Of a DNA stretch of 64,000 bases, positions 6,001 to 50,617 are shown one piece after another. Every line of letters starts with the position of its first letter. The first letter of the stretch is position 1. Source of the stretch: Tomocerus qinae (lineage: Eukaryota > Arthropoda > Collembola > Entomobryomorpha > Tomoceridae); contig CM034548.1 of NCBI GenBank assembly GCA_020055645.1, positions 20,336,001 to 20,400,000 of the forward strand. Direction: 5' to 3'. The position numbers were made by a program, and so were the translations under genes. Below the pieces are notes generated by a model. The model had not been told where the DNA came from. It ran no database searches and worked only from the letters and a program-made list of their open reading frames with translations.

Positions 6001-8660
6001 CCCTTCCTATTTACCGCCTCTCGACCCAAACTCACCTAACCCACTCCTCTTCCTGTCAATCAAAGGTCATCTCCCTTTTCAATACTCTAACTACATATCT
6101 TCTACATACATTCACCGTAGTATTGTCAATTCCATTGTCTTCATCATTTGTCTGTCACTCAACAACCCTAGTTTCAAGTACAATACAATAATTTACTCAG
6201 AATGGTCTCAATCCGCATTTGTCTATACATAAGTACTGTATTAAGATACAAAGCAACCCCGAGCCTTTTTTCATGGTTGATTTCACGGAGATACCGTTAC
6301 TATATGTAGTATACAGAAAAATGTCTTCATGACTATTTAGCTGATAATTCCAAGAGTCATCGAAACAGCTTGATTTGAGATTTGGTTACTTTTTTGAAAA
6401 CTAATGTTGAAAATAATGCTATACCAATCTACTATTAGTTGCAATAGAAACAACAGTTACGCATTTGGGAAAGTAAATATTCGTTAATATTATTTGGAGA
6501 GTCAGGGTACGGGGAAGCACCTATGTAAATGATAATGTATGGGTTGAGGAAGAGAGGGGCATTGGAAAGTCTGTGTGATAATAATAGGGGTTATGTAGGT
6601 ACACGTGCATTGGAAGTGAGTGTAGTCACTCATGTAAACTGTCAACTTATTGTTAGGAGCTACGCACAGTTTTCTGTAGCCGTCGGAGCAAGGTGTTTAT
6701 TAAATAAAAAAGAAAATTGGAGGAAAGTTTTTTTGTGAGTATAGTGAATGGAGGAGTGTGAGATTTATTTATACTATAGGAGAGTGTATAAATAGTGAGT
6801 GGTGGGTATGTAGATGTTTGTTATAGTAGGAGGAGGTGGATTGATACGGAGTGGTGCGAGGAAAGCGGACAGGGCGAGTGCGGGGAAAGTCAAACGTGGA
6901 TAGGAGGTGGATGGATGGATGGAGCATTGTCTAGTAGTGTCAACTGAGTGTAAGTATTTAAGATTCAGAGCAAAGCCGGGAGTGCTCAATCAGACCTCCA
7001 ATATGCCAATCCTATCTAGACATGAATGAGATTGAGTAAAACGGAGAGAATTTTATGATGGGTTTGTGCTGGTGTCATCGTAATCCGAATGGAGGTTGAT
7101 TTTTCACATTAGCATGGGTCCCACATCCCACTCGCAGCTTTCTTTGCCAGCCTCTTCTTTCCCTTCAGCGCGCCCACGAACGCTCTCCGATTATATTTCA
7201 TTGAAATTAAGGAGTGACAAGCCTTGCTGATCGGCAGAGAAAGGAGAAAAAAGTTTTTCCGAATTCCAAATAAAACTCTCGTCTGCCGAAAAATCCGAAA
7301 ACCGTATTTACTCTAGGCAAGGCTTGATTGCTACGATGTATCCACCCAAACCTGCATATTTTTCAGAGAAGTGCAAAGAAGTGTAAAAGCAATTAAGTGG
7401 GGCATTGTTTACCCACAGTACGCCACATTCCATGCAGAATACGAAGGACACTGGTTGGTATTCATGTGCTAAATCCTCACTCGCATTCTCAATTCACTCT
7501 CCTCCCTATATACCCACTAACTAGTACTACTTCAATATACTTGATATACATATAGGGAGAGGGATACTTTATTATTTCTCTCCTTCCCTATCTTCTTCTT
7601 TGCTTTCACTCTCGGGCACTTTAGCTTTTTGCTGGGAACAGAGGCCGTGCCGTGTAGCTTTCAGTATCTCGCCTGTCTTCTGTCAAACTATCAATGGCTA
7701 TAATACTCCACAATCATCCACCACCCTATACATACAAATATAGCATTTATATATCTGACTCTGTATGTACAGCCATCACATCACCGGCCACCTTATTCCA
7801 CTTCCATGCTTTTGACTTTCTCACTCTGCACTCATTGTTTCTTTTTGGCAGACACCAGCTTTACATTCTACCCCCAACTGCCTCAACCCTTATTCTTCAC
7901 TTCACAGCTATACAAACATCGTGTCTTTCTTTTTCACTCTACTATCTACTCTCTTATCCCATCTAATGTCAAAGGAATTTATTGAGATTGTACCTGAACA
8001 CCTCTTCCTATGAACAAAACAAATTTTACAACATAAAATACCTTAATCTTTATCGATTTTTTATATTTCATCCAAAAAGACATCATAAAAAGAGTAAAGA
8101 TAATATAAAAACAAGCAAATATCTAATTTAGTACACATAAAATTATTTTATACTCCCAGTTTGGAAAAGATTAGTAGATTTTATAGTGTCGTTATGCATA
8201 TAAGTAGTTGTGTGATCCATATATCTTTAAAGGGTAATATTTTACAGGAAACTAAAGCTATAAACAGTGACACATTATTGTCTGGATTCAGGTAGATATA
8301 AGTAGTGAGAATGTTCGTCGATAAAGAAGTATAGGGAAAGTTGGTTGAAATGTTTAGGAACGGGTGAACAGTCCCGTCGATTTCTCGAGCTGACGCTTCT
8401 TCTGTTATCCACACATTCATTTCGTTGCGTCCGGTGTGTCCGAAAGTGTAGCAAGGTATAATGTAGGTTTCCATCCGGAAGATTTCTTATAGTGTATATA
8501 GAGTAGGATAAGGTAGATAAGAAAAAGTAAGTCAGGCTGGTGATAGTTGGACAAAGAGGGATGCGGCAGTTTTCTCTTCCGAGTTGTATTGTGAGTGAAG
8601 TATGCAGAAAGTACAAAGTTTTCGTTTAGAGTTTTGAGTCGCATTCGGATCGGAGTGGTG
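1..8660. other. Gene-free stretch: skewed low-complexity DNA with a few complex islands
   Basis: No open frame here looks like a protein: all are short and dominated by Ser, Thr, Tyr, His, Leu and Phe, as expected from CT-rich or AG-rich simple sequence. Blocks of a few hundred bases to about 1 kb alternate between pyrimidine-rich on the + strand (about 2110-2360, 4160-4430, 5780-6230, 7480-7970) and purine-rich (about 2880-3110, 3660-3860, 6530-6990, 8160-8660). More complex, GC-richer islands occur near 3890-4140, 5740-5840 and 7090-7300 and could be regulatory. The stretch may be intergenic or part of a large FoxP 5' intron; the sequence does not decide. Confidence 0.6.
6907..6922. repeat. 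(GGAT)n short microsatellite
   Basis: About four tandem GGAT units inside a purine-rich block. A simple repeat with no function assigned. Confidence 0.7.
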
Positions 8661-32363: not shown

Positions 32364-32702
32364 ACTCCCCCATTGGTGAAAGCTTTGAAACAGCGCCAGA
32401 AAGAATTGCAAAACGCTTCCGCGTTTGACGTCGCCAAGATGCGAGATGTGTCAAGTGGAAAAGATGGAAATATGAATACAAGCAACGGTCAAGTAGGAAC
32501 TCCTTCACCCCCAATGTTGCCCAGTGGGGCTAATCAGTGCCTACCCATGTCCCATTCTTCAGTAGCATGCCACAATTCCGGGAATTCCCTCATTCTCGGT
32601 CCCAGCATTCACCAAGTTCAACAACTCCTACAGCAACAACTGCTCACCCCCGCTCAGCTACAATCTCTCATGCAGCAGCAATCTATGCTCTTCCAACACC
32701 AA
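32364..32702 (+). CDS. FoxP: FoxP exon 1 of those recognised: Gln-rich N-terminal region
   Basis: Acceptor TTTCAG precedes 32364 and donor GTAAAA follows 32702; both boundaries are phase 0. The segment encodes 113 residues, beginning [20 protein letters not shown] and ending with [20 protein letters not shown] plus QQSMLFQHQ, which aligns with the FOXP1/2 stretch [20 protein letters not shown]. The frame is open upstream to an ATG at 32334, so use of this exon as a first coding exon (ten extra residues) cannot be excluded, but those 30 bases look like a branch/acceptor region. Confidence 0.88.
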
Positions 32703-35700
32703 GTAAAACTCTATTTTATCTCACTTTCTTCGTATTTTTGTTTTGATGACATTAGCTAGAAAGGTTTTTTTTCAATTGCACTCCGTTTTTTATTCGGGCA
32801 TTTTGAGTTTGCCATTTATTTTGTATAGACACCATCTTAAAGTCAAGAATGAATATGAATTTGCTGAACCATTTTCTATGGATTTATTAAACAGTTTTTA
32901 GTTGGTAAATTTGTAGAAGAAGACTAAATATTCTTGATTTTGGAAGGCTCAAGAACAAAGAATTAGGTTGGAGTATATTATTATTGTTGTCTAAGGAAAA
33001 TGCAGATTTGGCCATTATTTATTCGTGCTATGTAAATAACTACAAACTAATGGCGTAATTATAAATTTTATGGCGTTGACAACACGCAATTTGGCAATGC
33101 TTGTGTTCCATTGGTTTTTTATTATGCATTTGGTATAAAATGATAAACAATGCAAATCATGATACTGTTTTTATAGCATCACCACCAACTTGCTGAAATC
33201 GGTAGAAAACAGCTTGAACAGGCTCTGCAAAACCTCCAGGAGCAATTACAGGTAAAATATATTTATATCTATTATTGAATATTGGAGTGCAACAGTAAAA
33301 AGCTATCGTTATTATCATTGGTACAATTTAGGTATTGGTATCACCTAGAGAAATGCTATTAAAGCGACGTCACATCGGGTTGACTTCATTTAAACGCATT
33401 GTTTGTATTTACAATAAATGCGGAAGTAAATAAACTAACAATGCTAACTGTTTTATGTAGTTAAATGTACTTCAACAGTCACATATAATTCAAAGTGGTG
33501 ATAAGAAAAAATCATCTGGTGCTCTCCAACAACTATCAGCGCAACAACATCAGTTGATGCAACAAATAACCCTCACCCAACGACAATATTTAATACAAGG
33601 AATGAATTTACCCTCAATGGTTATGTCCGGAGGTAGCGGAGGTAAGTCTCATTTCTTGAAGTTACTATTTAAGACGCATTTCTTTAGTGGAAGTTTTCAT
33701 ATAGGACACATGATGGTTTTATAGCGATAAGTAAAATAGTGGTGTATTAGATCCGACATCATTAGATCACCTGGAGAGTGAGTAAAAACTCATAAAGTTG
33801 TTTCAAATTTTGAACAAATCATAAGCAGACTTCAATTATAAAACATTTTCCCATGAGAAAGTAGGCGAGTGAAAAAACGGTGCAACTTCCTCAGATTTCC
33901 TATGGCGTATCGCAATTAAGTTTTAAAATTAGAAACCGTATTTGTGGCCTAGAACCAAATGATTTCTAACCTCTTTCTTTCAACTCTCTCGAATACAGAA
34001 AATTGACTTTCTCCTCAACACAGTTTGAGAACAGTGTAAGTAGGGTACACATAGATATTTCTTATGTAAAGGTGCTCCCTACACGAGCAAAATCGTGTCA
34101 CACGTTTTGAGATGATTTCCATTTAAGTCAACAGGAAAGAGTCAAGATAGTTTTACACCCAACATTGAAATGCGGAAGTTTTATTTAACTGTTTTCTTGA
34201 GGTTTTCTGATTACGAAAGGGGCAATGTCGTCGACATAAATGGATATGCAATTTAGTAGAAGGTATTCGTATTTACAGCGGAGGTATTTTTTATCTATTT
34301 AAACTACATTAGGGTCCGGGTGAAGGAGTAATGTAATTATAAAGTGATTATGTAATGCATATGTAATTAATAGGTATGAATGCTCCCGAAGAACTTACCA
34401 GTGGGTGGAAAGAAGGTCAAGAATCATCAGTAAATCCCGGTCTACTCGATATACCTCATCAAAATGGGTCTAGTCCAAAAAATGGGCCCAACGGTATGTG
34501 GAGATATAAGGATGATCCTACTTATATAAAATGTTACTTATACTTATAAAACATGTAATATGGACTACTTGAGACATTTTGTGACAAAGGGAACAATTTT
34601 TTCAGGTCTTTTCTCAGGCATGACAGGCCGACGAGAAAGTGTAAATGGAATGACTGTAGACAATGACAAAGGAGAGACAGTGGAAAAATCAATTAGTCAG
34701 CAACACCCGCTTTACGGACATGGGGTGTGCAAATGGCCGGGATGCGAATCCGTCTGCGACGACTTCTCCGCTTTTCTCAAGTAATGGGCTAATTCTTACC
34801 TTTGGCTTGAAGGGGAAAGAAATTAGGGAAGGGATTGTGTGTAGCGTTTAGGTAGTGGGAGTCCGCCTTAAGTCATTGGGCCATGGATCACTCTTGATTC
34901 CTCCACTCTGATAGGTTTGCTTTGGGATTGTAGATACATAAAGCGAGTGAGTTGGGTTGGCAGAGTGTTACGGCACCAATACATGCAATGCAATAATAGT
35001 TAGTTGTGGCATAAGGGATTTCTCCCGTTCCTTATGTGTTTCATGGGTGATTAGAAAACGAATCTTTGTAGAAATATTGTATGGAACACTTCATTCTGAT
35101 TCAATGTCAGCTCTTAAGTCGGCAAGACAAAAAACTTTTCTAATTATTCTTCGATCGAATTTAATAGAATTTCCACCCGAGAAGTGATAAATATCCTCAA
35201 TGCTATTCTGATTGACAGAGCATTAAGAGAATGCCGATTTATCCTTCAGCTCACACGAACCCACCAACCCAAAGAATTCCTACGAAAAAAACCCATTTCC
35301 ACTTAAATACATATAAACACTCGCTCTCTGTACTGCAGACAGTGAATATAAAAGAGTTCTCCACTCTTCACTAACACTTGTCTCCATTTATAAACCTCAC
35401 TTTCATTGGCAAACCGTTGTTGAGTGTCTGCGATGCCGGATATTCTCCACTAAATTGCTTTTCTCCGAATTTTTCAGACATTTAAATACCGAGCATACGT
35501 TGGACGACCGATCTACAGCCCAAGCCCGAGTGCAAATGCAGGTTGTCTCTCAACTGGAACTACAATTAGCTAAGGAAAGAGATCGCCTCCAAGCTATGAT
35601 GCAGCATCTGCATATGAACAAACAACAAAATCTCTCCGCTAATAATCCCGCTGGAACTAATCTCGTTCGCCCTGACTCTCCTAAAAGTACAACGCCAATA

Positions 35701-41700: not shown

Positions 41701-44700
41701 CATTATCGATATTTTAATTCCAATTTTTCACTAAAAGTCTCAATCATCAAGATTTTAACTTGTAAATTTACACACGCACCAATGGTATTGCTGGATACTG
41801 TAACATTTATAACGAAACATACAGCTCAAACATAGCTAGTAATTTCAATATCATATTCCTCATCATTTAACCAACAATTGTTGTGCTTTTTCAGAAATCC
41901 AGCGCAATCGAGAATTTTACAAAAATGCAGACGTGCGACCGCCATTTACTTACGCTTCACTGATTAGACAGGTAATCATTTAACTGTAGTAAAAACATTC
42001 AGGGAAGATCAAGAATTACTTTTCTATTATCTATTAATTATAACCCGTACTTGTACTTGAGTCAAGTGAAGATACTATAAGTATTACATGTACAAGTGAC
42101 ATAAAATTATGCATGTAAAATTTTAATATGAACTAATTTGTCTAAATTGACTTTTCTGTTTCAGGCAATCATTGAATCTCCGGACAAGCAGTTGACATTG
42201 AATGAAATTTATAATTGGTTTCAGAACACCTTTTGCTACTTCAGACGAAATGCGGCGACATGGAAGGTAAAACTAGGCTCAAACGCATGAATTAATAAAA
42301 GTAATGTTGTATGAGAAATAAATGCTCCACAGTCTCGGCTGAACCAATAGTAGAAATATTATGAGTCTAGTTAAGAAAGTAGCATAGCGGATTAGTACAT
42401 CCGATTGTTACTTACATTGGTTTGGCTTGAGCAAGTTCGTCCGCTCTATCGCTATATGCTCTCTCCCCAAAAGTGCTCATCCATTATGCACATTTGCCTG
42501 GCATTGTACACATGTTATGTAATTAAATAGGGAAGGGAAAGCATGGATAAATTATTTATTCAATTAGTGATTGTAAATTGTTTGGAATTGTAGTAATATG
42601 AAACCCATTTTGAAACTGAGCTAAAGGAAGATTTAAAATTCTGATTTATATTTACAATGCAAATTAAATCAAGGTTGATTTTATATTTGTGTACATAAGT
42701 ACTAGTGTAGAGCGACTAAAATCTTTAGCTAGGCGTGTATATTATTACTAATAAGAGTTCCTTTTTAGTTGGTAGCTGAGGAATGAGCTCATAGCTGTCT
42801 CGATGCCCTCGAAAACTACAAATGTTTATTTTCTTTCAGAAAACAAATCTTGAAAGTTTATTTGCTCTGGAAGAGAAACTTGAAGTTTAAATAAATAAAG
42901 TGAAAGTAATATAAAGAGAAATGTATTGATACTAATAGAAACAGGAGGAGGGAGTAGTTGAAGCAGAGTAGAACTAAAGGCAAATATTAAATCAGCGAAA
43001 AAGCAATGTCGTAGTAGATGGAGATGTTTTCTTAGAGTAACATACCCAGAGAAGTACAGTACAGTAGGGAATATTAGCTACGTACACAACAAAGATACAT
43101 AGAGAATCGGAGAAAAAGAAAAGGAAGAGGATAAGATGGTTTGGCTTGGATTGGACAGCAATATTGTGGGGTGGATGTAGACCTAGTGCAAGTGTCAACA
43201 GTGGCATGACAATTTGATGGCAGTCAAGTCATTTTGCAATGCAGACAACTTTATCTCACAATAAAATGTATATAACTTGTGTAGTGTACATAAACAAATA
43301 GACTATAATGCGAGTTGAATGATGTGCGTGAGAGAAAGATGAACTTTGGTGAGAGAGCATATGTGCCAGAGGCAGACTCATCTATAGGTAAGTACACTAT
43401 GCAAATCTTGTTGGTCCGTATGATGCAGCACAATGTATCTCTATGCGCATAATATTATAGTGAAATGAAATATGTACTAGTAACTACTACTAAGAATGTA
43501 AGTTTTATCTTATATCGCAGAGTGTAACGTTTAAGAGTAGAAAAACAGAAAATGAAACGAAGCGAATTGAAAGAGAATTGTTGTTGATATTCGGGATGAA
43601 GTTGGGATGAGGATGTGAAGGAACGACTTCTTCACACACAAACTCATATATTATCTTGTAGGGAAGGGCAGGGTGGGCGTTGGTTGCATATCCGTCTATG
43701 CATGGCGTATCACTTATTCTTTTACTACGCTGCACATTATATGAGTTGTCGTAAAGTAAGAATGAATGACTACTGAGTAAGTACCGGGTGAAAGTATTTG
43801 TAATCGTGAGTACTTACTCTTTCTTTTCATCTACAACAACTCATTTTATACCTTCAAAAGTGAAAACTAGTACTAAGTTAAACTTGAGAATCTACATAAC
43901 AGACGTATTACATAACTAACAATATTACTAGACTCGTTAGTATAGATTTAGTGTCCATTTGTATCTCAATCTCTTTAACTGCCTACTAACTAAAGTAATA
44001 ACACGTATGATTTATGCAGAGCTAACAGAAAGAGATGAGTAATTAACAAAATACAGGGAAATGCAGATATTGCATTCTTTTATCATCTATGTAGATCATT
44101 GAAGGAATTTTGATTGAGATTAGGATGAGATGACTGATTGTCTATATATAGGTTAAGTCATCTTGATCTCCCTGCATGTAGTATGTATAACCTATAGATA
44201 GATGTAGTATGTATAGGTATGACTACTTTTTTAAGTAAGTAATTGTATAAAGGATATAGGGGTTAAAGAGTATCAATGCACACCTGTGCCTACTTGAATT
44301 TGTAAAGCACTAGAATTGAGGTTGAGATGGAGTTTAGTTTAGGCTTGTGTTTATTTTTATGTACATAGAAAGAATGCGTATGTGGAGTGGGTGAATATTA
44401 TAATAATATGATAGACGGGAGGGAGGGAGTACTAGGCAGGGTAGTAGTAAGTGAAGAAATGTATTATAGTGACAGGAGGAGGAAATAAGAGAGTGGTAGT
44501 TGTTGTATCTGTTAGGAATATTTAATGTAGCGTTAAGGTAATAATAAGTATGTTGGATTGCATTGGATTGGAAGGAGATGTAGTGAGTGGGTGACTGAGT
44601 GAGTGTCGAGAGATCAGATGGAGGGTAGAAGTAGGTAGTTGATATGTTAATCGAGAATATGAGGAGGTGATTATGATTGGCTGTGTAGCTGTATGATGAA

Positions 44701-47700
44701 GTGAAAAAAGGAAGGTTGTTTGCTTTGCTTAGGCTGCTTCTTAAGATTAAGGGAGAGTCTTAGACAATATTGACACTGTGAATGTGTAAACACCTGACAC
44801 TGTTTACTCAAAAATGCAACCAATATATATGCAAATGTCTATGAATAATGGAGAGCTTTGAGATCCCAACAGCAGGTTTATCTGACTGTAAAGTTTTTGT
44901 TACGTCTTGCTTGGATTCGAGCGACCAGGAGTCGTTTTTAATATTTATCGAGATCTCCTTTGTTATTCCTACTTCTCTTTCAATTCGCTTCGGTTTTCAG
45001 GAGGAGCGCGTCTCTCTGATAAAAGACGAACACGGCCCATCCACGAACGATACGTACCCGGCACGAATACGAACCTTTCGTCCTCGTCTCCTACCCCCGA
45101 ATTCAACTCTGTAGTTGGTAGTCCGTCGTGATGCCATTGCCATCTCATCATCTCTCTCATGCCTTGCCAGCTCAACTCGGCTTGGCTGCCTATGGTCTGG
45201 CTTGGCTCACTTACTCACTTATCCCGACTCACTTAGGATCACGACTCATCGTCAGTCAGTCAGTCACCATATCCACTCATACTACTACTACATAGGAACA
45301 CATAAAACTGCATATCTAAATACACACCGATCTATTTACTACCACTTTTGATGTCCTTTTCAACAGTACCGACTCCATGTATATTATATTATGTGTGTAC
45401 CTAGCACTATGCTTTCAATCTCTGTATTGATATACATATACAAACATATTTCATGCATTTTATATACTTGGTACTATATTATATTGATGTGGGTGGATGT
45501 GGATACATAACGCTACAGTACACATTCAACTGCCTGACTGACTGACTGTGTGTTTACATTCAAGTGAGGCTAATACATTTCTCGAGTAAGTTTGCAGCGA
45601 CTTGTGAAGCATCATTGCTTTCTCAAGAGCTTCAGTTGCATGTGAATAAATTGAGAGCCACGCCACAGATCTCATACACTTTCTTACAGTTTGTTTTTCG
45701 AATATCTAATCAAGTTTTGCCACAGTCTGTGTACGGAATATTCAGTGCATTAAAACATTCCATACCGAGCAACGATACACTTTTTCTTTTCTCCGTCCAA
45801 AATCTACTACTTTCACTCTATTTACATGACCTCTTCTATAACCATTTTGTCATGACGTTGTCTCTATTCGCATTTGTTTTGTTCACATAACTGTTTTTAC
45901 AAGATTTGATGTATAGATACCTGGATTTATTGCCCCTCAATCTTTTTGTTTTGCATAAAAAGAATCTCAGGTTCTTTTCCATAGATTTGGTCATTTTTTA
46001 AATAAGAATTTCTGTTGAATGAAGAATTTTTTCCTACATCTGATTCATTCTTTTAGTTACTTGTATAATGTCTGAATAATCCGTACACTAAATCAGGCGG
46101 TAATGAAATTTTGTAGCAATTATGATTTGATGACTGAATCAATTATGATTTGAGTAGGTACTAGCGATTCATTATTATTTGGCACTGGTAGTTAGAGCAT
46201 TAGTAACTTAGACTAAAGTATATGTAGACACGAGAACGGACACAAGTAGAATATTACAATAATTATATGCTTGTCGCTGGACTCTATTTGAAACGAGGCC
46301 TTGTTGGGTCGAAGAGTTTTGTGATCCAGTCGGTGAGAGGACTGGGTAAATTTTGAAGACGGTTGGTTGGTCCTTTTGTATACTTGATCGTAGAAGCTGG
46401 CTAACTGCTAGAGCATATCACAGAGCTGGACCCAATTGTAATAGTGTCCGTAAGTATTATTAGTTGATTTTGACGATGATGACGACTCTTACGGATTTTG
46501 ACGGAGCCATCCATCACTTTTTGATTTTTGAAAGGTCCATCGTTGATTTGGCTGATTGTTTTGTTTTGCATTTGCTTACTTTGGTGTGTGTCTTATTTTG
46601 TATAGAATGCAGTGCGACACAACCTGTCGCTGCACAAATGTTTCATGCGAGTGGAGAACGTCAAAGGGGCAGTTTGGACAGTGGACGAGGTGGAATTTTA
46701 CAAACGTCGGCCCCAGCGGTGTAGTACGGGGTATGTGCGACCAAGTGGCTCGCTGACACTTGTCAACACTGACCTCTATATCTGGCTCTCTGTCCGGCAA
46801 TCATGTCCGATTTCGCTCTTTCTCCTTTACTACTTACGCTTTCTCATCTCGTCTCTCTCTCTCTCTTTACTCTATTTCTCTCTCTCTCTCTTATCTCATA
46901 TTTTGGTGCTCTCACTACTACACAATCGTTTCTTGTCACTCCTTCTTTTTCGACAGCTTTCGCTATCGTGTCTCGCCCGGCTCTTCCCGTCACTCTTATT
47001 AATACTTTACTCTTTAACATACCCTAATTATGCAATAATCAAAAATCTTTACTATTAGTACTGCTTTGATTCTATAATAATCCTCTATACTATGTAATCT
47101 ATCTATCTACTTATTTATATATTTTGATTATATATCTTGTTTAGACAGAGGTATTAGTTATGTAGTAAATTCAATACACTTGGGATTTGTAAAGAGGAAA
47201 TGATATTATGAGTGTATAAGAGGAGCTGTGGTTGAGACATTAGTGCAATGAAGTGCTTGTGCAAATGGATAGCATGCAGTCCATGTCTATTAAGAGGTTC
47301 GACGAAGGTTCAGTACAGTCGGTCAGTTAGTAGACTCAGTCAGGCGAAAATAGTAGGAGTGACCGTCGACATGGTACCAGGTAAAGGAAATCAGACATGG
47401 TTTGCTGGAACGTGGATTCAATTCAAGGGCTCGTAAGAGGTCTAAACAGCTTAGATTCTACTTTCTCAGGACTTTCTCTTCTTTGTCGTACTCTTTTTCT
47501 ATTTCTTTGGTGCTGTGTGTACACAGAACGCCATCCGCACCAATCTCTCCCTGCACAAGTGTTTTGTACGGTACGAAGATGACTTCGGATCTTTCTGGAT
47601 GGTGGATGATGCTGAATTCGTCAAACGCCGACATTTGTCTCGAGGCCGACCTAGGAAATATGACCCAACCCCATCACCTTCTCCATCATCCCACCATCCG

Positions 47701-50617
47701 TCTGCACAGTAAGAACCCACTCACATTTTCGCAGCCACACACTTGGTGACCTCTCTCGACTCCCACGCCAAACTTTCTCCTGTCCCTTTCACTGCCACTT
47801 TCTCCAGAATTTCATGCAATTTTATAATATTCACTTCTTAAAATCATTTCCATCATTTTTAATAGTTTCTACCAATTTTTGTAACAGTTAAAATTTTTAT
47901 TCATATCTTAAAATCTTATTGATACAACTGTATAATAACAAAATATTGTCTGTGTCGTAAATCAAACTATTTATTTTATGATTCTATAAATTTCATCGTT
48001 TCATTGCAGTTTAAAAGACTGTCTCAATTTATATACTAATTAAATACTATGGCCATAATTCAATCATTTACTTATATCTTGTCGGCATTTTATCTACTTT
48101 TCATCCTTTTCCCAACCAACCTATTCACAAACAATTTCCGTCCATAAACCTTAATAATGTGAATGAAATCATACTTATTTGATGCAATTACTACTGTAGA
48201 AATATTCATTTACTAGGTAAAATTAATTAGATGAAATCAATTATCGTTTTAAATGGTAATCCAAATCTATAATATTTTACATCACCTTCAACCAAATGTG
48301 ATTGAATCACTATTTTTAAGAGCGAAGAAAAGATTTTACTGCTGTTTTACGAAATTTTATATTTTGGCTAGACATATTCCTAAAGTATTTATTTTAGCAG
48401 TTATATACTAAACGTTTAGGTAACCAACATTTATTATTAAAATGTTTGTTAATTCTTGCAAGGTTATATTTACTTAGTTGTTACTTCAGGTATTACTTGA
48501 GAAAGAAAAATCATTTACGAGCTGCAACATTCTCCATAATTATTTTCAAATATATAGATCATCTTTAATGAATGAAATAGGGACAATATGTTATTTGTTT
48601 TGAGATCTGGTATTTCTTGGTTGTATATATTTTTGCAAGACTTAATTGGTGAAAGGCGAAATAACTGAGGTATTTTAGGTATTTAGATGTAATCTATGAA
48701 AGGCTTGAGGTAGAGGTAACCAATGACTATAGAAAGTTGACCAACGAATACGAAAAGTTGTGCCATGTGTATTTGACAGTGCTCCCGTCCTTGTTTTTGT
48801 AGCCCCAGATTTTTCAGGATTTTCGTAGGATTTATGCTATCAACTCTTCAAGTGAACCGTCAGCGAGAGTACAGAAAGGTTGAACTTTTGCAGAAACGTT
48901 CTTTTTTATATCTTTTCTCTTTCGATCGTCTTTTTTCTAATTCACTTTTGAATATCTTCTTGTCGTTTTTTCGTCTTCATATTTTCATCCATTCGGAATC
49001 TAATGTCAGTAGCGAGTTCCAAGTGATCATCCACATTTTTTTCCGTCTTTTTCTCGTTATATATCTATCCAAGAATACGAAAGGAACATTTTCCACACAG
49101 GATCTGGAATCCAAGAGTAACAGGTAAAATGATCACTTGGATCCTGACATCAAAGATGGACTTTCCCTATAGATTTCTGTTTCGGTTGTTCATGATATGG
49201 TAAATAAATAATTTCATAAAAACTTTTAATCCTTTGGTATTTTATACTTTCATCGTAGTTTTGGGAAAGTCCTCTTTTCTTTTTCTCTCTATCTTTTTTC
49301 TTTGAATCCGCTTAGCAATTTTGTGCATTTTTGTGATATTTATTCTCAGGCCCGGTAGTTGTGTATCTCAGTCAAGGTAGTTTGTCGCAACGATTTTAGG
49401 AATGAAAAGCTGTCGTTTTTCTCTTTCCACTTCCGCTTACTCTTTGTCCTTCTTGATATTTTATTGTATTTCTTGTCTTCAATCTCAGTGTTGACTTTGC
49501 ATCCTTTTCTCATTAGCACAGTCACATTTTAAATCACTCATACCAAAAATCTTACACATTGCCTATTTTTCTATTTTTCATTTTTACTCAAAAAATAGTA
49601 TCTAATTGACTGTACTGCGAATTATAGGGGAATTCAGTCCAAGAGCCCTACTCTAACACAAAGTCCGACTCTCTATGGCGAAAGCATCAACGCAAGTCTT
49701 CAAGTAAATATGTCTTATTATGTAAAAACACATTAAAAAATGCAGAAAAAATTACATACTGAAGTATCTATAATAAAATCATTCTGAGACTTTAATATTA
49801 ATATTTTAATTTTAACAGGCCGCCTTAGCAGACAGCAATTTGCCGTTTGTTGGGTCTATGAACGCTGGGAATGTGAGCCCTGACCAGGCACCTGTATCTC
49901 CACTAGATCCAAGGTAACAATAAATCTGATCTGTATTGAATAACATAATGAAGGTCTTAACATTCTTTTAAATCTCATTTTCTTTTATTTCTTTTGCATT
50001 TAAAGAAGCCTATGTACTTACCGGACCGATGAAATACAACTGGTCCGAGTACGTACAGATGCTATTGGTATGGGTGCCTCATCCTCTTGCCGTCAATCAG
50101 CCAGCTCACCCGATTGGATTGGGTGTGCTAATTTATGTCTATTAATTAAATCTTTTTCAGTTTATTATTTTTCTTCCCATTTATATCATTTTGCATCTTA
50201 AATATCTTTTTTAGTTTCGTCCTTAATTCCTAACAATACTAAAAAGTATTTCTTCCAAGGAATTAAAATTATGCTAGATGACATTATTAATAATATTTTA
50301 TTTACAGATCCCCGAACGGAAGTCCATCAGGAATGAAAAGAGACAGTTCCAGCCCAATCCAATCGAATGGGATGCACCACTTGAGCAATTGCGGGTTAGA
50401 CAGAGGTGCCTTGAGCGCCTTGATGAAAAGAGAAGTGGATATTTCTGAAAGTGGGACTCAATACGGAGTTTCCTCTGATGGGGAATCCATGGGTCGAGAC
50501 GATCACGAAGATATTCTAGGAATGGACAAACACGAAGACTTGGCGGAAGATCTCTCTTTCTCCTCATCATCCCATGCTGCCGAGTCTCGTATGGACTCCA
50601 GCAGATTCGACCAATAG
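32364..50617 (+). CDS. FoxP: FoxP forkhead transcription factor (5' end not identified)
   Basis: A forkhead transcription factor of the FOXP class: nuclear, binds forkhead sites and dimerises through its zipper; in animals it acts in neural development and behaviour. Exons in order: 32364-32702, 33177-33251, 33461-33641, 34374-34493, 34606-34780, 35478-35712, 35799-36087, 36735-36800, 37739-37783, 41895-41971, 42165-42266, 46606-46730 or its alternative 47527-47708, 49628-49703, 49819-49913, 50308-50617. Every join keeps frame; the total is 2310 nt, 769 residues plus stop. Visible domains: Gln-rich region with [13 protein letters not shown]2H2 finger CKWPGC...HLNTEH; leucine zipper; RRRISDK linker; forkhead domain from [19 protein letters not shown] to the VWTVDEVEF wing; tail with [15 protein letters not shown], matching vertebrate FOXP1/2. 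No initiator exon is identified. ATG 32334 is in frame but lies within what looks like the acceptor tract. Long vertebrate-style polyglutamine and an obvious PLNLV CtBP motif are absent. Confidence 0.95.
33177..33251 (+). CDS. FoxP: FoxP exon 2: Gln-rich coiled segment
   Basis: A 75-nt exon (25 codons, phase 0-0) between a TTTTTATAG acceptor and a CAG|GTAAAA donor. It encodes [20 protein letters not shown] followed by QEQLQ, which matches the position of the QLQEFYKKQQEQLHLQ stretch in vertebrate FOXP. Its symmetric phase would allow in-frame skipping. Confidence 0.9.
33461..33641 (+). CDS. FoxP: FoxP exon 3: Gln-rich region
   Basis: The acceptor is TTTTATGTAG and the donor GGAG|GTAAGT, entering in phase 0 and leaving in phase 1. 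It encodes [20 protein letters not shown] and then [20 protein letters not shown] and a Gly/Ser/Met end, comparable to the vertebrate segment between the polyQ tract and the LWKEV motif. Confidence 0.9.
34374..34493 (+). CDS. FoxP: FoxP exon 4: [10 protein letters not shown] segment
   Basis: A 120-nt exon, phase 1-1, with donor ACG|GTATGT. It encodes [20 protein letters not shown] and then [29 protein letters not shown] occupies the place of the conserved AEIQQLWKEV in vertebrate FOXP. The length is a multiple of three, so skipping would keep frame. Confidence 0.9.
34606..34780 (+). CDS. FoxP: FoxP exon 5: first part of the C2H2 zinc finger
   Basis: Preceded by TTTTTTCAG and followed by GTAATG; enters phase 1, leaves phase 2. 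It encodes a variable spacer and then [20 protein letters not shown] and FSAFL, the FOXP zinc-finger hallmark with the two Cys ligands of C-x4-C. The two His ligands are on the next exon. Reading through the donor would meet a stop immediately (AAG TAA). Confidence 0.95.
35478..35712 (+). CDS. FoxP: FoxP exon 6: zinc-finger end and leucine zipper
   Basis: It starts after TTTTTCAG in phase 2 (completing Lys) and ends in phase 0 before a weak donor, CAT|GTACGC. It encodes [20 protein letters not shown] and [20 protein letters not shown] then MQHLHM. The two His ligands complete C-x4-C-x12-H-x4-H, and the following helix is the FOXP leucine zipper used for homo- and heterodimers. The tail [20 protein letters not shown] is Pro/Ser/Thr-rich. 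Confidence 0.95.
35799..36087 (+). CDS. FoxP: FoxP exon 7: Pro/Gly/Ala linker ending in RRRISDK
   Basis: Separated from the previous exon by only 86 nt; acceptor TCTCTCCCGCAG, donor GGAG|GTAAAA, phase 0 to 1. It encodes a low-complexity linker ([16 protein letters not shown], then Leu- and Ala-rich) and ends with [18 protein letters not shown], the motif that precedes the forkhead domain in FOXP proteins (vertebrate IRRRHSDKYNIPMSSE). A reverse-strand open frame over this exon is a shadow of its GC-rich codons. Confidence 0.95.
36735..36800 (+). CDS. FoxP: FoxP exon 8: second RRR-x-x-D linker exon (cassette-like)
   Basis: A 66-nt exon, phase 1-1, between acceptor TACACATAG and donor GAAG|GTAAAA. 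It encodes [20 protein letters not shown] then E. Aligned to the end of the previous exon, P-[IV]-RRR-[IV]-[SG]-D-[KR]-x-x-L-x-[LI]-x-x-G is shared, so it looks like a diverged duplicate of that linker. It can be included or skipped without frame change. Exon status rests on sites, phase, open frame and this similarity; RNA evidence is not available here. Confidence 0.8.
37739..37783 (+). CDS. FoxP: FoxP exon 9: [14 protein letters not shown] linker
   Basis: A 45-nt exon, phase 1-1, acceptor GTATTAG after a strong CT tract, donor CAAG|GTGAGG. It encodes [14 protein letters not shown], which I recall as the segment just before [10 protein letters not shown] in insect FoxP and which has no counterpart in vertebrate FOXP1/2. 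As a symmetric microexon-sized unit it could be alternatively included. Confidence 0.88.
37784..41894 (+). other. FoxP intron before the forkhead domain
   Basis: No exon was recognised in this 4.1-kb intron. It contains skewed low-complexity blocks, a CT-rich region at about 39200-39620, and a more complex island near 40580-40850. A strong acceptor-like tract ending TTTCCTCAG at 39852 is followed directly by GTACAT; no open frame follows, so it is not called as an exon. Confidence 0.5.
41895..41971 (+). CDS. FoxP: FoxP exon 10: forkhead domain, first part
   Basis: Acceptor TTTTTCAG, donor CAG|GTAATC, phase 1 to 0. It encodes [20 protein letters not shown] then ASLIRQ, the N-terminal strand and helix 1 of the forkhead domain, almost invariant across FOXP proteins. 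Confidence 0.97.
42165..42266 (+). CDS. FoxP: FoxP exon 11: forkhead domain, helices 2 and 2-3 turn
   Basis: A 102-nt exon (34 codons, phase 0-0), acceptor TTTCTGTTTCAG, donor AAG|GTAAAA. It encodes [20 protein letters not shown] and [28 protein letters not shown] includes the FOXP-specific hinge (Ala-Tyr-Phe or Cys-Tyr-Phe instead of the Pro found in other forkheads) associated with domain swapping in vertebrate FOXP2/3. Confidence 0.97.
42267..46605 (+). other. FoxP intron before the alternative forkhead exons
   Basis: A 4.3-kb intron with purine-rich low-complexity DNA (about 42860-43700 and 44290-44720) and one exon-like segment at 45001-45127, listed separately. No third copy of the NLSLHKC-type forkhead exon was seen here. 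Confidence 0.5.
45001..45127 (+). CDS. Candidate orphan FoxP exon (GARLSDK segment)
   Basis: A strong acceptor (long CT tract ending CGGTTTTCAG) precedes a locally GC-rich segment. Entered in phase 1 it reads [20 protein letters not shown], then [20 protein letters not shown] and PS, with a stop at 45129-45131. A possible donor GTC|GTGATG would exit in phase 2, matching the exon at 49628. Phase-1 donors that fit are those at 36087, 36800 and 37783, so a transcript using it would omit the whole forkhead domain; the neighbouring exon 11 ends in phase 0 and would instead give a 37-residue unrelated tail. RLSDK faintly recalls the RRRISDK linker. It could be an alternative terminal exon, a cassette or chance. 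Confidence 0.3.
46606..46730 (+). CDS. FoxP: FoxP exon 12A: canonical forkhead recognition-helix exon
   Basis: A 125-nt exon, phase 0 to 2, acceptor TTTTGTATAG, donor CGGG|GTATGT. It encodes [40 protein letters not shown] and TG. This is helix 3, the beta strands and wing of the forkhead domain. The Asn, Arg and His of NAVRH correspond to the base-contacting FOXP2 residues N550, R553 and H554. Unlike most FOXP proteins it has Met rather than Val in CFMR. It is mutually exclusive with 47527-47708. A CT microsatellite lies just downstream. Confidence 0.96.
46855..46897. repeat. (CT)n microsatellite, interrupted
   Basis: Two CT runs separated by a short TTACTCTATTT interruption, 125 nt after the donor of exon 12A. 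As a polypyrimidine tract between the two alternative exons it could bind pyrimidine-tract proteins, but this is inference. Confidence 0.85.
47527..47708 (+). CDS. FoxP: FoxP exon 12B: alternative forkhead recognition-helix exon
   Basis: A 182-nt segment after acceptor GTGTACACAG, phase 0. It encodes [40 protein letters not shown], then RPRKYDP and a Pro/Ser/His tail. It is the counterpart of the alternative forkhead exon of fly FoxP and mammalian FOXP1 (exon 18b type). The NAVRH of 12A becomes NAIRT: the His that contacts DNA in FOXP2 is Thr, whereas the neighbouring Arg is kept. It adds an AT-hook-like RGRPRKY. The 3' boundary is ambiguous: CA|GTAAGA is a near-perfect phase-2 donor that fits exon 13, but read-through gives CAG TAA, an immediate stop at 47710-47712, making it a terminal exon as in flies. 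Confidence 0.93.
47713..49627 (+). other. FoxP intron after the alternative forkhead exons
   Basis: Ordinary AT-rich DNA with T-rich stretches; no exon recognised. If exon 12B is terminal in some transcripts, its 3' UTR would lie here; AATAAA-like words occur (for example within TAAATAAATAA near 49203), but none can be assigned. Confidence 0.5.
49628..49703 (+). CDS. FoxP: FoxP exon 13: start of the C-terminal tail
   Basis: A 76-nt exon, phase 2 to 0, acceptor GCGAATTATAG, donor CAA|GTAAAT. It encodes [20 protein letters not shown] then NASLQ, corresponding to the vertebrate SPTLVKN...ALNASLQ segment directly after the forkhead domain. Both alternative exons 12A and 12B can enter it in phase 2. 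Confidence 0.95.
49819..49913 (+). CDS. FoxP: FoxP exon 14: AALADSNLP tail segment
   Basis: A 95-nt exon, phase 0 to 2, acceptor TTTAACAG, donor AAG|GTAACA. It encodes [20 protein letters not shown] and [11 protein letters not shown]; the start matches AALAESSLPLL of vertebrate FOXP2. Confidence 0.95.
50006..50122 (+). CDS. Candidate cassette exon in the FoxP C-terminal tail
   Basis: A 117-nt (39-codon) segment of clearly higher GC than the flanking intron, preceded by a good pyrimidine tract (TTTCTTTTATTTCTTTTGCATTTAAAG without a consensus C/T at -3) and followed by G|GTGTGC. It is open in the frame set by exon 14 and is phase 2-2, so it would insert [39 protein letters not shown] without a frame change. 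The peptide matches nothing I recognise. The putative donor lies inside a 13-nt complementarity to exon 15. Alternatives: an intronic regulatory element, or chance. Confidence 0.35.
50308..50617 (+). CDS. FoxP: FoxP exon 15: C-terminal tail and stop
   Basis: Acceptor TATTTACAG, phase 2, with stop TAG at 50615-50617. It encodes [20 protein letters not shown] and continues through ALMKREVD to a run of Asp/Glu/His/Ser ending SSRFDQ. The acidic, Ser-rich end corresponds in character to the vertebrate tail with its VKEEP and acidic terminus. The reverse-strand frame over this exon is a shadow. Confidence 0.95.

Follow-up and report, generated by a model that had tools for sequence, protein, structure and literature searches.

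The window, by which we mean the whole stretch of DNA that was analyzed (64 kb within a genome of 334 Mb, at 20336001-20400000 of the large contig C3), carries on its plus strand a FoxP gene with a split forkhead domain. The order of its domains is the usual one for FoxP proteins: a Q-rich region, a zinc finger, a leucine zipper and the split forkhead. The Q-rich stretch lies upstream of the forkhead at around position 32622; it is on the plus strand, as are the exons described below. It is followed by an exon for a C2H2 zinc finger, which carries the motif CKWPGC (minimum extent 34698-34780, donor AA/GTAATG, with the slash marking the junction), and by an exon for the leucine zipper or coiled coil (minimum extent 35478-35628), which matches the Pfam profile FOXP-CC (PF16159, E 3e-22, profile positions 19-69 of 69). 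Weak Pfam hits below the cut-offs were taken as noise. The forkhead domain begins in an exon at 41895-41971 (donor CAG/GTAATC) and continues in a constant exon of 102 nt at 42165-42266, which is preceded by AG, followed by GT, and both entered and left in phase 0.

Two putative alternative exons come next, both entered in phase 0 and left in phase 2. Exon A, at 46606-46730, is 125 nt long (41 codons and 2 nt; donor GGG/GTATGT), and exon B, at 47527-47708, is 182 nt long (60 codons and 2 nt; donor ACA/GTAAGA). Further downstream there are three coding exons, located at 49628-49703 (76 nt, entered in phase 2 and left in phase 0), at 49819-49913 (31 codons and 2 nt) and at 50308-50617, where the last coding part ends in ...MDSSRFDQ and a stop codon. 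All exon junctions were read off the genomic sequence, and on this basis exons A and B look internal, with the three downstream coding exons common to both. Beyond the FoxP gene, on the same strand, an open stretch at 62649-63017 matches the DSP-PTPase family in Pfam (PF22785, E 9e-7); this stretch, which ends in ...AVHCK, presumably encodes something akin to a CDC14-type dual-specificity phosphatase.

Two versions of the second half of the forkhead domain

The sequence-only reading of this DNA held that the two tandem exons encode rival versions of the second half of the forkhead domain, the half that contains the recognition helix. Our analysis bears this out: the coordinates of both exons proved right to the base, and the two protein versions that had been quoted are correct. 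The homology of the pair is evident from their alignment, with 63% identity over 35 residues (E 3e-12) and 22 of 41 residues identical when aligned without gaps, while the best of eight other forkhead loci compared against exon A reached E 3e-7. In a search of PDB, the domain completed with exon A matched FOXP2 with E 4e-39 and the domain completed with exon B matched it with E 4e-30. For both domains the order of matches was FOXP1, FOXP2 and FOXP4, then FOXP3, far above other forkheads; the next family was FOXG1, with E 3e-14 for the domain with exon A and 4e-15 for the domain with exon B. FOXP chains are the best matches by many orders of magnitude, and the forkhead profile PF00250 is also matched.

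Version B was further said to replace a DNA-contacting His by Thr and to keep the adjacent Arg, and the PDB alignments display exactly this. Based on work on FOXP2, we take the replaced His to be a DNA contact. The Thr is present, but it is not particular to this genome: it forms part of a signature (KNAIRTN, HKCFVRYE and WMVDD) that exon B has in common with Drosophila FoxP isoform B as published in the accessible portions of two reports (PMC7776582, PMC4070984), KNAIRTN being encoded by fly exon-8 primers. Where the fly exon-8 primer translates as WMVDDN, exon B differs only in the final residue (A in place of N), and the other primer stretch is identical. Similarly, a guide sequence against human FOXP1 exon 18b encodes DEFGSF, and exon B encodes DDFGSF over that guide stretch (PMC8189919). 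The published oligonucleotides were translated in the frame chosen to fit, and the comparison is limited to the stretches that they cover. Because these translations match, we conclude that the Thr of exon B is shared with fly isoform B and that the proposed link to the known FoxP exon pair of fly and mammals holds.

We also compared the recognition helix across the genome, where there are at least 21 further forkhead loci (8 + 13), covering 23 listed matches outside the window. The helix is included in 19 of them; loci L017 and L021 comprise the first half of the domain only and stand outside this count. His occupies the position in question in 17 of the 19 loci, another residue is found in two, and Thr in none. 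Exon B itself was absent from the matches of the genome search, and further exons whose helix is altered may likewise be missing from the list of loci. Within the 64-kb window, neither a pattern scan nor tblastn revealed a third copy of the exon; a stray weak tblastn match at 6201-6290 (E 0.13, 33%) was taken as chance.

The same survey yielded some observations on other forkhead loci and on the assembly. Three loci (L010, L011 and L012) have an odd recognition helix, IRHTLCG as against IRHNLSL, and the first two look almost identical and lie on different large contigs, which suggests that a divergent Fox gene was duplicated recently. Three other matches (L001, L002 and L004) are located within about 63 kb of one large contig (C2, 19.03-19.09 Mb) and perhaps represent a conserved Fox cluster. 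About 96% of the assembly, which totals 334 Mb, is contained in five large contigs (C1-C5) with lengths of 140, 72, 52, 34 and 24 Mb; if these are chromosomes, their sizes are very uneven. Repeats of TTAGG were found at one of 11 small-contig starts (12 triple-unit counts in the first 400 bases and 66 in the first 10,000) but at none of the ends of the five large contigs (10 ends, 3 kb examined at each). Taken with the fly-like residues of exon B, the repeats of the small contig suggest that the animal may be an arthropod, although their absence from the large-contig ends speaks against it.

Reading frame and the expected fate of spliced products

The phases of the exons agree with those claimed in the sequence-only reading: the constant exon is left in phase 0, both alternatives are entered in phase 0 and left in phase 2, and the exon at 49628 is entered in phase 2. 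Spliced models that join the constant exon to either A or B and then to the downstream exons keep the frame open to a common stop at 50617. Models with both exons or with neither are frameshifted and stop prematurely, also as predicted. When both are included, the stop falls at nt 436 of the model, within the exon at 49628 and 144 nt before the last junction; when both are skipped, it falls at nt 241, within the exon at 49819 and 32 nt before the last junction. Transcripts are usually subject to decay when a stop codon lies more than 50-55 nt ahead of the last junction. Double inclusion would therefore give a classic decay target, whereas the product of skipping both exons is not an obvious one, as 32 nt falls short of this distance. 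The argument that the arithmetic itself enforces a choice thus stands as far as the frame is concerned, but it acts on the product and not on the splicing step. Additionally, retention of the intron behind the constant exon would lead to a stop after seven codons (42267-42290) and to a truncated forkhead, similar to the intron-retention isoform that is described in fly (PMC7776582, PMC6372147, in the portions available).

We are highly confident that this is a FoxP gene with an ancient, tandemly duplicated forkhead exon pair, arranged as two internal, phase-matched cassettes with the canonical version in exon A and the Thr form in exon B. The sequence, the phases, the splice sites, the open frames and the homology are established; in vivo splicing of both exons, their exclusive inclusion and a change in DNA binding between the two forms are inferred.

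The internal position of exon B has to be weighed against an arrangement like that in Drosophila, where published accounts have FoxP exons 7 and 8 serving as alternative last exons (PMC6372147, PMC7776582, as far as the available text goes). Here, exon B would remain unspliced at its 3' end and terminate at its own TAA as fly exon 8 does, only exon A would be joined to the exon at 49628, and the choice would be one of alternative polyadenylation together with splicing. An in-frame TAA (47710-47712) does start one base after exon B, and ATTAAA is found downstream of the exon at 48039 and 48436, with AATAAA at 49203. The TAA overlaps the donor (CA/GTAAGA), so it is read only upon intron retention, and if the donor were unused the protein would end in ...HHPSAQ. 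However, an exit in phase 2 combined with a GTAAG donor produces TAA automatically, no AATAAA occurs between exon B and 49203 (about 1.5 kb), the donor of exon B is a good one in the same phase as that of exon A, and the whole shared C-terminus stays open when exon B is joined to 49628. We therefore consider a terminal exon B unlikely. That exon B is instead a decayed and unused duplicate of exon A can almost be dismissed, even though the analysis covered a single genome: it has 60 open codons, splice sites and a matching phase, and it shares residues with exon 8 of the fly and exon 18b of human FOXP1 where published oligonucleotides cover them.

Candidate determinants of exon choice

For two internal cassettes, the choice would most likely fall to splicing factors that are tissue-specific and act on the introns to either side, and wrong products would be spoiled afterwards through the frameshift. 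We counted motifs of known splicing factors in regions around the exons, which gave 48 motif-by-region counts, and compared them with 478 gene windows. In human cells, MBNL1 represses FOXP1 exon 18b (PMC8189919, in the portion available). Near exon B, in contrast, YGCY sites of the MBNL type are ordinary in number, with two in each 250-nt flank, a count reached by 48% of the 478 windows. The clusters flanking exon B that MBNL control would entail were not found, and this count lends no support to such control. There are six YGCY sites after exon A and six after the constant exon, a count reached by 4% of the windows.

The intron between exons A and B contains a CU-rich tract at 46801-46950 that is 81% pyrimidine; it is the densest 150 nt on the plus strand of the window, and no other cluster equals it. 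Part of it (46842-46903) is a simple TC repeat, that is, a microsatellite. The count of CU hexamers after exon A is reached by 1% of windows, and this is one count in 48. The tract, which was chosen after the fact among those counts, may be regarded as a candidate site for a PTB-like factor. Counts of UG repeats before exon A and before exon B are reached by 7% and 10% of windows, respectively. The 250 nt after exon B (47709-47958) hold 12 YCAY sites of the NOVA type, as many as are reached by 1% of the 478 gene windows; this is again one of 48 counts and perhaps due to chance. Because 48 counts were made, no single one of them is convincing.

Steric exclusion, or exclusion through incompatible U12 sites, was rejected because the intron between A and B is 796 nt long and the splice sites are GT-AG. 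Alternatively, an RNA structure of the docking-selector type could loop out one exon and so enforce the choice. A duplex between the 300 nt after 42266 and the 300 nt before 47527 gave the most promising result, as its pairing was reached by none of 40 and then by six of 400 shuffles, and none of 68 other intron segments paired as well with the side at 42266. Nevertheless, 10 pairs had been tested, of which this duplex came out best, and on the exon-B side four of the same 68 segments paired as well or better. The duplex is not supported, and we regard enforcement by RNA looping as very improbable.

DNA binding and relation to known FoxP genes

Transcripts with exon A would encode FoxP in its canonical form, whose recognition helix contains Arg-His and for which binding sites of the GTAAAC type are expected. 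Those with exon B would encode the Thr form, corresponding to fly isoform B and to the FOXP1-ES type, in which Asn and Arg are kept, His is lost and a basic tail, RGRPRK, is gained (47641-47658, with the position counted from the translation). Since the His is lost and the basic tail gained, this form should bind different or looser sites. The tail looks to us like an AT-hook. The AT_hook profile of Pfam does not report it at E values up to 10, and the motif is very short; a limited literature search found no paper that ties an AT-hook to FoxP isoforms, or GRPRK to FoxP. It is conceivable, although we would rather bet against it, that the splice choice swaps one mode of holding DNA for another, with the Arg-His helix used by version A and an AT-hook-like minor-groove clamp behind the wing used by version B in place of the His contact, and that the TAA could yield a third form without the shared C-terminus. 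The two versions of FOXP1 are reported to prefer different sites, GTAAACAA for the canonical and CGATACAA for the ES form (PMC11701043, in the portion available). By analogy, a split of binding sites like that between canonical FOXP1 and FOXP1-ES would be the best guess for the gene described here.

The comparison with Drosophila reveals both likeness and difference, according to the portions of the fly papers available. The forkhead domain is split in the same way and the canonical version comes first in both. In contrast to the fly pair of alternative last exons, however, the sequence here appears to provide three further coding exons common to both versions; additionally, the reverse primer for fly isoform B encodes the ending ANEHNR, which exon B does not have. 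Mammalian FOXP1 exons 18 and 18b are mutually exclusive, keep the frame and alter residues of the forkhead domain (PMC11701043, in the portion available), and the pair described here likewise consists of two exons that keep the frame and change forkhead residues. In its phase-matched, apparently internal form it therefore resembles FOXP1 and not the fly gene. Two isoforms that affect the forkhead domain are also reported for honeybee FoxP, AmFoxP, in the part of the account available (PMC6219247), which is a further likeness.

The FoxP exon pair is thus of a kind already known, and what is of modest further interest is its internal arrangement and the tail resembling an AT-hook. Judging by its title and by the papers that cite it, the work of Santos et al. 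in 2011 is said to describe this very exon pair of FoxP. The significance of the present locus lies in the form that the pair takes, that of phase-matched cassettes which look internal and have their C-terminus in common, in what may be an arthropod; this form is FOXP1-like and not fly-like. If RNA data agree, this would be consistent with a derived state of the fly form, and the Thr version could be studied here without an altered C-terminus.
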